A stretch of 64,000 nt of DNA from Neolewinella persica DSM 23188 (GTDB taxonomy: Bacteria > Bacteroidota > Bacteroidia > Chitinophagales > Saprospiraceae): NCBI RefSeq assembly GCF_000373105.1, contig NZ_KB890414.1, positions 220,568 to 284,567 of the forward strand. Reading direction: 5' to 3'. Both the position numbers and the translations under genes were made by a program. The notes beneath the pieces are model-generated. The model worked only from the letters and a program-made list of their open reading frames with translations, ran no database searches and had not been told where the DNA came from. Every line of letters starts with the position of its first letter. Position 1 is the stretch's first letter. Positions 237 through 63,513 of this stretch are shown here, in pieces.

Positions 237-1858
237 CGAGCAAAGCGCATATTCAATACCCGGTGCCATCGATCAAGTGCCACTACCTTATAATCGTACT
301 TGACCACAGGGTCCGCGGCCGCGTCGTAATAATGCAGGCGGTGGCAGCCCTGGCCATAAGGCGTTCGGTGTAAAAGGGTCATTGGCGTGGATTTACTCGC
401 CCGGTAAATGGCAAAGTAATGTGGCAATTCGGATTTAGGTACGGTCTTGTCTACATCCCATACCACCAACATACCCTTAGCCGTTTTTTTAGGCTTGTAA
501 ACCTTTACTTTCATTGTTCTTACCTCTTGCGGAGCAATACGCACGGGCAGCAATGCGGGCGTAGGATAAACATCCGCCATCCGCTCCGCAAGACCAGCTG
601 GATTCAGCAAGATAGATTTGGTACTGAAATATACGCTTCCTTTCAGGGCGGGCAATTGATGGTTGTATTCAACCTGCCGGGGCAATTCTTCCAGGGTATT
701 CCAGGCTTCGTCGTCATTATTACCCACTTTGTAGGCAGCGTGACCGGCGTAGAGGGCAATGTTCTTTGGGGTGTTGGCGGCCCACCAATTGGCAAGGGTG
801 CGGTAACCGGCAGGAGCATACTCCATACTCCAGTACAGTTGCGGCAGCAGGTAATCAACCGTACCGGCGCGGGCCCAGGCCAGGGCGTCGCCATACAGGT
901 CATCGTAGCTGCTTACCGAAGCCCGGGTGGCGGATCCCATGACCGGATCCTGGGCCAGGTTCCGCCAAACGCCAAAGGGGCTGATACCGAATTGCACCCA
1001 CGGCTTCGCCGCTTTAATGCGTCGCTGGGTTTCGGCTACGAAGGTGTTTACGTTGCCACGCCGCCAGTCACTAAGTCGTTGACTGCCACCGTAGCGTCGA
1101 AAAGTTTCCTCATCGGGGAAGGGCACTCCTGCTTTGGGGTAAGGGTAGAAATAATCATCGAAGTGAACACCGTCCAGGTCGTAGTTGGCGACCAGCTCAT
1201 CGATTACTTCGCCAAGATGTGTACGAACTTCAGGTAAGCCTGGATCAAGGTACCGGCGGCCGGCGTAGGATCTGATCCAGTCGGGGTGTTGGTGGTACAA
1301 ATGGTCTGGGGCAAAGTTCAGGCTGTCCAGCGTCATCGCCACCCGGTAGGGGTTTACCCATGCGTGCAGCTCGACTCCCTGAGCGTGGGCCGTTTTTATC
1401 ATGTAGGCCAGTGGGTCAAAACCGCTGACGGGAGCCTTGCCCTGCACGCCCGTCAGCCATTCAGACCAGGGTGCGTATTGGCTCGGGTAGATCGCATCGC
1501 CTGCCGGTCGGACCTGCACAAATATGGTGTTGAGGCCAGCCTGACGAAGACGGTACAACTGGCTTTTAAAGTCGGCCTGGAGGGTCGAAGCATTGACCGT
1601 CGGGTTCTGAGGGTAATCGATGTTCAGCACCGTAGCCATCCAAACGCCACGGAGCTCACGGTCTGCGGACTGGGCCAATAACAGAGGTGAAAAGGAGCAA
1701 AGGAAAAAGGGCAGCACTAATAAGAGCTTAAGAGAAAGCAGAGCCGATTCTTTCCGCCCTTTTCCTCTTCCTACTACCCTGAAGGCGCTGCCGCAGGTAC
1801 AAAGTGAGTTAAAACGAAGCAAAAAAGGGGCAACGTTGGAGGTTGAAATGTCTTCCAT
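233..1858 (-). CDS. Secreted GHL10/DUF187-type glycoside hydrolase-like protein
   Basis: This is a family-10-like glycosylhydrolase (GHL10, formerly DUF187; COG1649/YngK type), predicted to act on polysaccharide in the envelope or outside the cell. The catalytic barrel begins with ELRGVWMATVLNIDYP and contains the family signatures FVQVRPAGDAIYPS, HAWVNPYR, LDGVHFDDYFYPYP and GISPFGVWRN. A hydrophobic signal segment ending LLLAQ precedes it. The C-terminal ~100 residues look like a fibronectin-III-type domain; I see no T9SS sorting domain. The start is uncertain: the ATG at 1858 leaves about 40 residues before the hydrophobic core, and the codons in between overlap a copy of the dispersed motif (1784-1830). 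A TTG at 1927 would make it longer still. Confidence 0.85.
   Translation of the reverse strand: MEDISTSNVAPFLLRFNSLCTCGSAFRVVGRGKGRKESALLSLKLLLVLPFFLCSFSPLLLAQSADRELRGVWMATVLNIDYPQNPTVNASTLQADFKSQLYRLRQAGLNTIFVQVRPAGDAIYPSQYAPWSEWLTGVQGKAPVSGFDPLAYMIKTAHAQGVELHAWVNPYRVAMTLDSLNFAPDHLYHQHPDWIRSYAGRRYLDPGLPEVRTHLGEVIDELVANYDLDGVHFDDYFYPYPKAGVPFPDEETFRRYGGSQRLSDWRRGNVNTFVAETQRRIKAAKPWVQFGISPFGVWRNLAQDPVMGSATRASVSSYDDLYGDALAWARAGTVDYLLPQLYWSMEYAPAGYRTLANWWAANTPKNIALYAGHAAYKVGNNDDEAWNTLEELPRQVEYNHQLPALKGSVYFSTKSILLNPAGLAERMADVYPTPALLPVRIAPQEVRTMKVKVYKPKKTAKGMLVVWDVDKTVPKSELPHYFAIYRASKSTPMTLLHRTPYGQGCHRLHYYDAAADPVVKYDYKVVALDRWHRVLNMRFAR
1784..1830 (-). repeat. dispersed motif, copy 1
   Basis: Read on the minus strand: TTTGTACCTGCG, then GCAGCGCC, preceded by TTTTGCTTCGTTTTAA. 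This is a diverged copy of the motif described in the findings. It lies in the 5' part of the hydrolase ORF and would encode the odd stretch SLCTCGSA. Confidence 0.6.
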
Positions 1859-2040
1859 CCCACCAAGTACCGATAAATCTTTGACATCTCGAAGAAAGTG
1901 ATTCCTCCAAGACAGTTGGGCTGACAATGATTAGTTAGTTTTGGCACCCAATATCGGCTCATATTACGCGATTGGCCTACTCGCAAATATTGAAGCCGCA
2001 ACCTACTTTAATCACATTCATCGTTCAAGACTAGTTTTAC

Positions 2041-5000
2041 ATGAAAATATTTTTTACTAATTTCTTACTCCTGTTACTACTAGGAGCAACCGCGGGCATC
2101 TGTGCCCAAGACAGTGGCAAGCTAGCCATTGATTACCTCCAAAAAGAGTATGCCGTTTTCGGTCTCGAGGCTAGCGACGTGACGGACATAAAGATCACCG
2201 ACAACTACCCCAGCCCCAACGGCACCCGCCACATATATGTGGCGCAGCGCCTGCACGGCTTGCCGATTATCAATGCTGCCGCATCCTTGCACTTCCGGGG
2301 TGACCGGCTGGTGCACCGCACCAGCGACCTGGCCACTAACCTGGCCTCCGTTCTCCCCACTGCACCTGCGTTCAGCGCCCAAACTGCTGCCGGAAAAGCC
2401 GTCAACGAAGTTACTTCAGCCTTCGGCGTCCCCGTCGCCATCGGCACCGACGAGCTTGGCCAGCAGCTCTTCTCCTGGGAAGAAGTGAGCCCCGAGGCCA
2501 TTAAAGTCAGCAGTGGCTGGTACGTCACCGAAGCCGGGCTCCGCCTGGTGTACCGTGTCCTCATCGACCAGCACGCTGCCCATTCCGACTACTGGGACGT
2601 AATTATTGACGCCGTAGATGGTCGCATCATCGACCAGGACAATATGGTACTTAAGTGTAGCTTCGGTACCCCCAACCGCCATCAGCACGATTTTGCCAAC
2701 GGCTGCAAAAGTGATGTTAATGAGCAAATGCCCGTAAGCGAGCAATTGCTGGAAAAAGCCTTTACCGCTCCTGCCGCCATGGCCGAAGAAAGCCGCTACC
2801 ACGTTTTTCCCTTCGGTGTCGAATCGCCCATTCACGGAGAGCGTACCATGGAGGTCAGCCCCGCACACCCAATTGCTTCCCCCTTCGGCTGGCATGACAC
2901 CAACGGCATCGAAGGCGCAGAGTACACGACTACCCGTGGCAACAACACCTGGTCTTACCCCGATCGGGATGGCGACAATAATGTAGAAACTGACGTGGTC
3001 GCAGAAGGCGGTGATTCGCTGGTCTTCGATTTCTTCTACGCACCGGGAGCCGATCCCGACACCCTGCTCCAAGCAGCCATGGCACAAACGTTTTACACCA
3101 CCAACAAAATGCACGACTGGCTCTACGTGGCTGGTTTTGACGAAGCTGCCGGCAACTTTCAACGGAAGAACTACACGGATGAAGGTGAGGACAGAGACGA
3201 AGTCCTAGTTGAAGCACAGGACGGTTCCAGAGTTAACAACGCGACCTTCTCTACCCCCGCAGACGGAGGTAGCGGAAGAATGCAAATGTTCCTCTGGACC
3301 AGTAATGGCGATGGCAGTGCTATGCAGGTTACTGCCCCGGAATCTATTTCGGGCCGTTACGCTACCGGCCTAGCTGGCTTTGGTCCTGCTATTGACGAAA
3401 CGCCCCTTACCGGACAGGTGGCGATCTCAGATCCGGCCGACGGCTGTACTGAAGTAACTAATGACCTGACCGGCCAGATAGCCCTCGTTACCCGTGGCGG
3501 ATGTAACTTCTCCCTGAAGGTGTTCAACGCACAAGAAGCTGGCGCCATCGCCGCCATCATCTGTAATGATGCCATGGCAGGTGCTGCCGACGGCAGGGGT
3601 GGTCTCATCGGAATGAGTGACGGTGACCCCGCGCTCGACAAGCGTATCCCCAGCGTGTTCATCACTTTCGAAGCCTGCGTGGAGCTGCGCAACCGTGTAG
3701 TGGCTGGCGACAGCGTCTCCGTTACCTTTCAGAACGAGCCACCACCCCCCGTTGACGGTGATTTCGACAACGGTATCGTAAAGCACGAAATGGGACACGG
3801 TGTATCCAATCGTCTCGTCGGCGGACCAAATACCAACAGCTGCCTTAATAACGACGAGCAAATGGGCGAGGGCTGGTCTGATTTCTTCACCGTAGCCGCT
3901 ACCCCATTGACGAATGTACCAAATCCTGATGGTTCAGAAGCTCGTGGCACCGGTAACTACGTCCTCCAAAATTCCTTCGACGGTCGAGGCATCCGCAACT
4001 TCCCTTACTCAACGGATATGTCGATCAACCCCCAGACCTATGACGACATCATCAACGCCTTCTTAGCTCCTGATCCCGACGATGGCAGCCCCAGGCCCAG
4101 CGTTCACGCCTTGGGAGAAATCTGGAACACCATGCTCTGGGACCTTTACTGGGCCCTGAGCAACCGGGACGGATTAGACGAAGACCTCATCGACGGTACC
4201 GGAGGTAACAACCTTGCCGTGCAGCTGGTCATCGAAGGAATGAAAAGAACCAAGTGCCGCCCTGGTTTAGTGGACGGCCGCGACGGCATCCTCGCTGCCG
4301 ACTTTGATCTGTATGATGGCGCCAATTCCTGCCTGATTTGGGAAGTCTTCGCCCGCCGGGGACTGGGCTTCTCTGCCAGCCAGGGCAGTGGCTCCAATGA
4401 CCGGACTGACGGACGAGAAGCTTTTGACATCTCTCCCGCTTGTTTCGGTGGTGTTCAATTAACTAAAACTGCCGACGTCAGCACCATCAATGCTGGCGAA
4501 GGGGTCACTTTCACCCTCAAAGCCACCAGCTACCGCGAGGAGGCTACGGATAAGATACTGATTACCGACATCATCCCCGACGGGATGACGCTCGAGGAAA
4601 ACTCTATCCGAGGAATCGAAAACTGGACCATCGATGGACAAACGCTCACGTTTGACCTCGGCACCATGGACTTCGAAGACGAAGAAACCATTCTCTATTC
4701 TGTATCCACCGACCCCACATTAGGCTCTGACCAGACCTACTTCGATGGCGCTGAAGCCGGAGATAATGACTGGGACATCCTTAGCCTCAATGTCTTCGAT
4801 CCGGATAACCCCATCACTGATATCTTTTGGGAAGTAACGGATACGACCCCGTATACTGGCGAATTCAGCTGGTACGTCGTCAACGCGGGAACTGCTCAGG
4901 ACCAGGTGCTACAAACTACTGAAGCCTTACCCATCACTGGTGATAACCCGGGACTCCGGTTCTTTACCAAGTACGAGACCGAGATTCGCTGGGACGCAGG

Positions 5001-63301: not shown

Positions 63302-63322
63302 GGTTAGGGGGGATAATTTTTA

Positions 63323-63513
63323 GGCGCGGACGCAGGATGCAGGGTGAGTTACCGAGTTCGTGAGTCACTGAGTTGCTACCGCAAATACCGTTCGCTGCGC
63401 TGCGCTTGCTCACCCGAGGCGAATGAGCGTAGCGAAATGAGTGGTAACGGCGGAGCAACTCAGTGACTCAGCCCTTCACCAACTCACTCTGCACCCGCGC
63501 GCCGTCGCCCGAA
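63323..63513. repeat. 191-bp inverted-repeat element with motif copies 17 and 18 as ends
   Basis: The outer ends are dispersed motif copies: 17 at 63323-63343 (minus strand TGCATCCTGCG, TCCGCGCC) and 18 at 63488-63513 (TCTGCACCCGCG, CGCCGTCGCCC). Inside them lie arms built of GAGTTA/GTGAGTCACTGAGTTG words (63344-63376 against 63452-63487). The core 63377-63451 contains CCGTTCGCTGCGCTGCGC, TTGCTCACCCGA and AGTGGTAACGGCG, and is homologous to the core at 56092-56156. The element fills most of the scpA-tgt spacer. Confidence 0.82.

Follow-up and report, generated by a model that had tools for sequence, protein, structure and literature searches.

What is the directional motif that recurs, mostly in alternating orientation, along the 64,000-nucleotide stretch of Neolewinella persica DSM 23188 analysed here (the window; G000:C2:220568-284567, where G000 is the organism's own genome and C1 and C2 are its contigs)? 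About 18 copies had been listed in a first-pass annotation, with a mobile repeat end, an uptake-type sequence and a chromosome-organising site as candidates. The uptake-type sequence was found to be best supported, by copy number, genus-specific spellings, substitution at one site and absence from three conjugative regions, and the mobile repeat end was disfavoured; a probability of about one half is given to the motif being an uptake-type tag that marks self DNA and has accumulated through biased acquisition.

The motif was bipartite, directional and non-palindromic, about 48 nt long with fuzzy edges: a TTGCTC box, a pyrimidine tract that includes a short A/T stretch, then the core TTTGCACCTGCGNCCGCGCC and finally an A-run. 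The core pattern GCACCTGCGNNCGCGCC (up to 2 mismatches) was counted 1852 times (931 + 921) in the 7.08 Mb genome, a clear excess over the reversed pattern (13 + 12 = 25); a minority core variant, TACCTGCGCTCCGNCGCC (up to 2 mismatches), was present in 50 copies (26 + 24; reversed control 0). Positional analyses were made on 744 kb of G000 (about 10% of the genome) with a weight matrix (48 columns; cut-off in the window scan, score of at least 8). The scores were bimodal in the 464 kb on which the matrix itself was trained: 158 sites at 8 or above and just 3 at 4–8, with none at 6 or above in a shuffled copy. The 280 kb outside the training set gave 84 sites; the reversed matrix found 3 there, and one shuffled copy had none. 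The upstream box that the annotation had placed beside most cores was borne out: TTGCTC (up to 1 mismatch) stood 17–26 nt 5' of the core at 102 of 174 sites picked by core only, versus 8 of 174 in a control interval, and at 57% versus 5% among the 242 matrix sites.

The near-strict alternation of strands was real. Neighbouring copies of G000 lay on differing strands in 173 of 238 cases (permuted strands: 120.5 ± 7.6; maximum of 2000 permutations, 146), and in 47 of 64 cases among isolated neighbours. The alternation arises because same-strand copies exclude each other over about 3 kb and opposite-strand copies do not: same-strand pairs closer than 3 kb numbered 26 versus 71.6 when strands were permuted (lowest of 5000 permutations, 52), and those at 3–4 kb numbered 40 versus 39.4 expected. 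The coefficient of variation of the same-strand gaps was 0.49 in G000 and 0.54 in the sister genome G013 (random placement would give 1), with a rise of the gap histogram at about 3.25 kb in G000, less sharp in G013. For G013 (112 sites in 400 kb, versus 2 in a shuffled copy), 17 same-strand pairs below 3 kb were counted versus 33.9 (null minimum, 21), and opposite-strand pairs were even (26 outward, 25 inward), the opposite strands ignoring each other. Ten further genomes of the genus, pooled (112 sites), gave 11 same-strand pairs below 3 kb versus 25.8 (minimum, 14), and 29 outward versus 13 inward opposite-strand pairs; for G010 just 14 same-strand gaps were at hand, one of 1.7 kb and the others above 3.0 kb. 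The accompanying statement that most copies form outward-facing pairs held for close neighbours of G000 (below 300 bp: 29 outward, 6 inward, 1 same-strand) and failed at 1.5–6 kb (58 inward, 32 outward).

These distances are what a polar reading enzyme would give, and a Chi-like recombination site, read on one strand by a helicase-nuclease that enters from a DNA end and then switches to recombination, is the main rival: same-strand exclusion with independent opposite strands is predicted, the next same-strand site being redundant and each strand being served separately. It is nevertheless held to be unlikely. Known Chi sites are of 5–8 bp, and the core of the present motif has 17 positions besides box and tract; the Chi of E. 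coli is over-represented on one strand with replication, and on contig C1, whose GC skew is one-signed, the two strands carried 60 and 56 sites. That balance also answers the suggestion that the motif be viewed against replication direction, no strand bias being seen, and on it a polar replication guide of the KOPS type (FtsK orienting polar sequences) was rejected. A site for an intracellular protein, chromosome-organising or otherwise, that requires polar and regularly spaced anchors on each strand would account for the low variation of the same-strand gaps and for the preference for gaps between genes described below; lacking the strand bias on C1 that KOPS-type guides would show, it too is considered improbable.

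The spelling of the motif was then found to differ between sister species. The own core exceeded its reversed control at least 3.5-fold in 17 of 20 sister genomes; the excess was 2-fold in G006 and nil in G001 and G010, and these three carried other spellings. Among 99 other genomes of the family and order the count stayed low (highest, 67 versus 26 reversed), and of 12 non-genus samples (18–40 kb) the own matrix found a single site in one (G092) and none in the others. The spelling of G010, TTGCTACTTTGNNAGYC, was discovered by a k-mer count: 1163 copies (566 + 597) versus 39 reversed (22 + 17), with the other 59 genomes of the same search near their controls. The pattern TACCTGCGCTCCGNCGCC was the main spelling found in G001 (325 + 336 = 661; reversed, 1 + 0) and in G006 (185 + 183 = 368; reversed, 1 + 2); other genus members had 1–165 copies, and G001 and G006 were sisters in a tree of a RimK-like protein (support 100/98). 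G013 used GCACCTGCGGCAGCGCC. By eye only, the spellings of G010 and G000 can be superimposed as TTGC..C.T..GNN..GCC.AAA. Refinement of a separate matrix for each genome from 40–80 kb was unstable for G001, G004, G006 and G015. No spelling was found in other genera by a de novo motif finder, in which codon periodicity dominated the output for most genomes and which was too weak to rule such spellings out. Changes of spelling bear upon both intracellular readings: with a Chi-like site, a central repair enzyme would have had to change its target more than once within one genus, and with an organising site, G010 and G001/G006 would have had to respell hundreds to thousands of sites in concert.

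Unrelated repeats were met in the same searches. The 9-mer ATTCTCGAT with its overlaps occurred 23 times in the first 80 kb of C1 (G000:C1:1-80000), abundant and without relation to the motif. Strongly repeated 9-mers of the ACCAATCACC type in G023 (L151-L152) and of the CTGACGGCC type in G042 (L164) suggest other repeat families in related genera.

How single copies come and go was followed at the coding site 48122(-). The full core was present in the orthologues of G018 and G013 (in G013 in its own spelling), a partial core in those of G014 and G007, and none in those of G003 and G002; the orthologous cores lined up at one position, no gap of motif size being seen, and the aligned sequences point to a copy that is changed by substitution in place and not by insertion. 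Matches to 13 of the 59 genes with coding sites (464 kb) were obtained in the relatives' stretches searched, and four were compared besides 48122(-): at C1_11458 a related core was seen at the same place in one relative, and at C1_5504 and win_10983 the orthologues were too diverged to tell how the copies arose; the fourth, C1_5762, is taken up below.

A mobile repeat, such as the end of a REP (repetitive extragenic palindromic) element or MITE (miniature inverted-repeat transposable element) moved by a Y1 transposase (REP-associated tyrosine transposase, RAYT), was also considered. Y1_Tnp genes were found in 13 of 13 genus genomes searched, and the close outward pairs recall REPINs, the paired form of REPs. 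This reading is nonetheless judged most improbable: besides the fuzzy edges, the absence of a palindrome and the lack of a motif-sized gap in the orthologues of 48122(-), the spacers of 26 outward pairs below 250 bp were unlike one another, and the same-strand exclusion would stay unexplained. Folding of five copies gave no hairpin beyond chance. At four own Y1 loci, examined out of seven matches, the motif was absent from two and at least about 300 nt away in two. The hairpin/REP reading was rejected on this folding and on the differing repeats at the Y1 loci. These loci adjoined tandem and inverted repeats of their own (L207, 577-991; L208, 439-944; L209, 1529-1813; L210, 1508-1693), with units of 25 nt, 23/46 nt, 71 nt and 52 nt, unlike the motif.

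Recently transferred DNA was approached through three conjugative traG genes, the DNA round them being taken without mapped element borders. The motif matched nowhere in 40 kb of G001, the first 20 kb of the G008 region or 23 kb of G011, versus about 14 matches expected from the genome means in these 83 kb; the division of the G008 region was made post hoc, its next 20 kb holding 5 matches and the whole 103 kb thus 5 versus about 18 expected. Absence from conjugative regions also fits a Chi-like site; it speaks against a chromosome-organising one.

The context of the copies was determined on genes called by a purpose-made codon-score script, not a standard gene finder, and the counts are approximate. 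Intergenic DNA, 18% of the 744 kb, held 144 of the 242 sites; the remaining 98 were intragenic (57 on the coding strand, 41 on the opposite strand). Between tandem genes 34 sites were sense and 42 antisense; divergent genes flanked 51 sites and convergent genes 16. Two features suggest a promoter or another kind of transcription signal: the TTTG... of the core, reminiscent of the Bacteroidetes -7 element (TAnnTTTG), and the fact that some copies precede genes on their coding strand. One such copy precedes an era-like gene: of 14 related loci (L051-L064), 10 had a same-strand copy (score of at least 8) no more than about 260 nt upstream of this gene, in varying spelling and in some cases weak. 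(The closest named relatives of the Era-like protein were from Neolewinella and Lewinella strains, with up to 92% identity.) Against it stand the tandem counts, the convergent gaps and the intragenic copies, the lack of conservation of the TA of TAnnTTTG, the position of the upstream box some 20 nt off, and the five folded copies, which gave no hairpin beyond chance. Orientation to genes being near random, the copies are not placed as promoters would be; this reading was rejected on orientation and context and is rated very improbable, in keeping with the doubt that the first-pass annotation had expressed. Copies pointed at the nearest gene in 89 cases and away from it in 54, a real but weak tendency, which leaves the 3-kb exclusion unexplained.

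Within coding DNA, 15 sense sites lay at most 75 nt from a predicted start, two of them exactly at the start. About 11 of the remaining 13 encoded the end of a signal peptide by eye (e.g., LLCTCGPAQ, LFCTSVRAQ), because the tract reads as hydrophobic residues and the core as the cleavage site. In about 11 genes of the 744 kb, judged by eye, a DNA tag thus supplies a protein-targeting sequence.

In the window itself, all 18 copies listed earlier were recovered by the weight matrix and one was added at 29129(+), 19 in total; 13 matches with up to 3 mismatches were counted versus 0.08 expected. Signal-peptide ends were encoded at 40629..40676 (-; score 40.0; LFCTSVRAQ) and at 54019..54066 (+; 47.9; zero-mismatch core; FLCTCVRAQ), and a putative signal peptide, by eye, coincided with the sense copy at 14725..14772 (-; 49.5). 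Other copies in coding DNA were found at 10951..10998 (+; 34.0; sense), at 2337..2384 (+; 13.3; weak, sense) and at 48108..48155 (-; 33.6), the last being the site 48122(-) discussed above, in the linker of a gene named ATP-grasp-like by eye and present to a varying degree at the same aligned place in orthologues. The added copy, at 29096..29143 (+; 13.2; weak), is antisense within a long repeat-protein gene; the gene (23393-31828) encodes 2811 aa, in which numerous CSDGIMNGNETGVDCGGPDCAACPTC-like repeats separate longer domains. Convergent genes enclosed the copies at 5814..5861 (-; 44.0) and 21979..22026 (+; 39.6); tandem genes enclosed those at 15017..15064 (+; 38.6; antisense to both), 20882..20929 (-; 44.4; antisense) and 38303..38350 (+; 36.9; antisense). 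The pair at 58767..58814 (-; 36.5) and 58928..58975 (+; 49.4) was located between genes named cinA-like and era-like by eye, and upstream of the era-like gene, respectively. The other intergenic copies were those at 1778..1825 (-; 30.8) and 63317..63364 (-; 25.1), and three with two extra bases in the core, GCACCYGCGCNCCGNCGCC by eye: 32816..32863 (-; 18.0), 52475..52522 (-; 18.8) and 63466..63513 (+; 15.2). Five of the 19 were weak (scores 13–19; 2370, 29129, 32830, 52489 and 63499), and the last three of these are the copies with the extended core.

If the motif is a self-DNA tag, tagged free DNA would be taken up, or made single-stranded and integrated, more often than untagged DNA, and alleles gaining the tag by point mutation would be over-transmitted and would spread. 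A second same-strand tag within one imported tract of about 3 kb would bring no gain and would decay; just the tag on the transferred strand would count, so that each strand would bear its own series. A putative receptor and the tag would drift together, giving one spelling per lineage. Uptake or transformation as the process, single-strand or polar recognition, and maintenance by drive are what we infer from these patterns. A tag that pays once per transferred stretch and per strand would be expected if a single strand of about 3 kb were the unit of exchange, or else if a polar enzyme read one strand; the former fits transformation, in which ComEC passes one DNA strand (PMC8459023).

An uptake-type tag is favoured also because the genus has the relevant genes and because Riemerella anatipestifer needs proteins unrelated to known machinery for transformation and R. 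columbina prefers its own DNA. ComEC was found in 21 of 21 genus genomes searched, DprA in 12 of 13 (the missing one is 55% complete) and the family PF07075, which we take to be DUF1343, in 12 of 13. In PMC8459023, DUF1343 is reported essential for transformation in Riemerella anatipestifer, which needs ComEC, DprA, ComF and RecA together with four proteins unrelated to known machinery, one of them with a domain common in TonB-dependent receptors. Riemerella columbina (Flavobacteriaceae) is described in PMC7965970 as preferring its own DNA, with own DNA competing and foreign DNA much less so.

Several observations weigh on the other side. ComEC and DprA, and PF07075 too, were also present in relatives in which this spelling is at background, and the former two therefore do not discriminate. 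No type IV pilus was found: all 13 genus genomes searched for a secretin gave none, and for the pilus ATPase only partial T2SSE matches (at most about 25 bits) were obtained in the genus. Substitution in place is drawn mainly from one locus, being clear at one of the five coding sites compared; at C1_5762, G001 was short of 9 residues at the site and G006 was not. Pure single-strand redundancy does not predict that close outward pairs should outnumber inward ones, as they did in G000 and the ten pooled genomes and did not in G013. Finally, known uptake sequences act regardless of orientation, as stated for the uptake signal sequence (USS) in PMC1939737 and PMC7811141, and the Neolewinella motif shows a strand-specific exclusion, read from its spacing.

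The fuller claim, that DNA exchange in Neolewinella involves a self-recognition code that arose apart from the Neisseria and Haemophilus systems, with one-strand reading, a reach of about 3 kb, no type IV pilus and diverged spellings, is put forward tentatively. Genome-wide uptake signals were confined, in the open-access literature surveyed, to Pasteurellaceae and Neisseriaceae, both pilus-based; an independent case in Bacteroidota, if true, would show that such codes evolve repeatedly. Diverged spellings could then limit exchange between sister species, and the outer-membrane step of Bacteroidota transformation would become approachable with a defined DNA ligand. Same-strand exclusion, being quantitative, could reveal whether a code is read at a double-strand or a single-strand step, and the classic systems can be searched for it.

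Compared with known systems, the spacing would fit a site of the Chi type, which is polar with each strand independent; Chi is far shorter and its orientation is biased with replication. REPs are hairpins that insert; they occur outside genes by the hundred, in part as inverted pairs. The motif shares the number, the extragenic position and some inverted pairs, and differs from REP/REPIN and RAYT systems in having no hairpin (five copies), in not flanking the organism's own Y1 genes (four loci) and in showing no insertion at one coding site. Unlike a Bacteroidetes promoter, it is not preferentially upstream on the coding strand. Riemerella columbina, with its self-preferring transformation, belongs to the same phylum; its candidates are only A/T-run k-mers, whose function is left open by the authors (PMC7965970). 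No Bacteroidota uptake motif was listed in the open-access literature beyond that k-mer table, and nothing on Lewinella or Neolewinella turned up there.

With USS and the DNA uptake sequence (DUS) the motif shares a non-palindromic form, many copies on both strands and lineage-specific spellings. USS is a core plus flanking tracts, as is the Neolewinella motif. The distribution of USS in Pasteurellaceae is likewise relatively even, with a spacing of about 1 kb on average (PMC7811141, in part), versus about one copy per 3 kb and a strand-specific arrangement here; its even spacing is cited, but held short of what compaction would need, in a section of PMC1939737, and intragenic USS are biased towards gene ends (PMC2346458, in part). 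The DUS of Neisseriaceae resembles the motif in its thousands of copies, its lineage dialects (PMC3630211, in part), a spacing that matches conversion tracts and its absence from recently acquired DNA (both from part of PMC2397512). It differs in that the Neolewinella motif has a 17-position core with an upstream box, belongs to another phylum, comes with no type IV pilus found and shows same-strand exclusion, its uptake role being a proposed one. Since no pilus machine was found and the spacing is strand-specific, the motif is regarded as working like DUS and USS and is not filed as a member of either.

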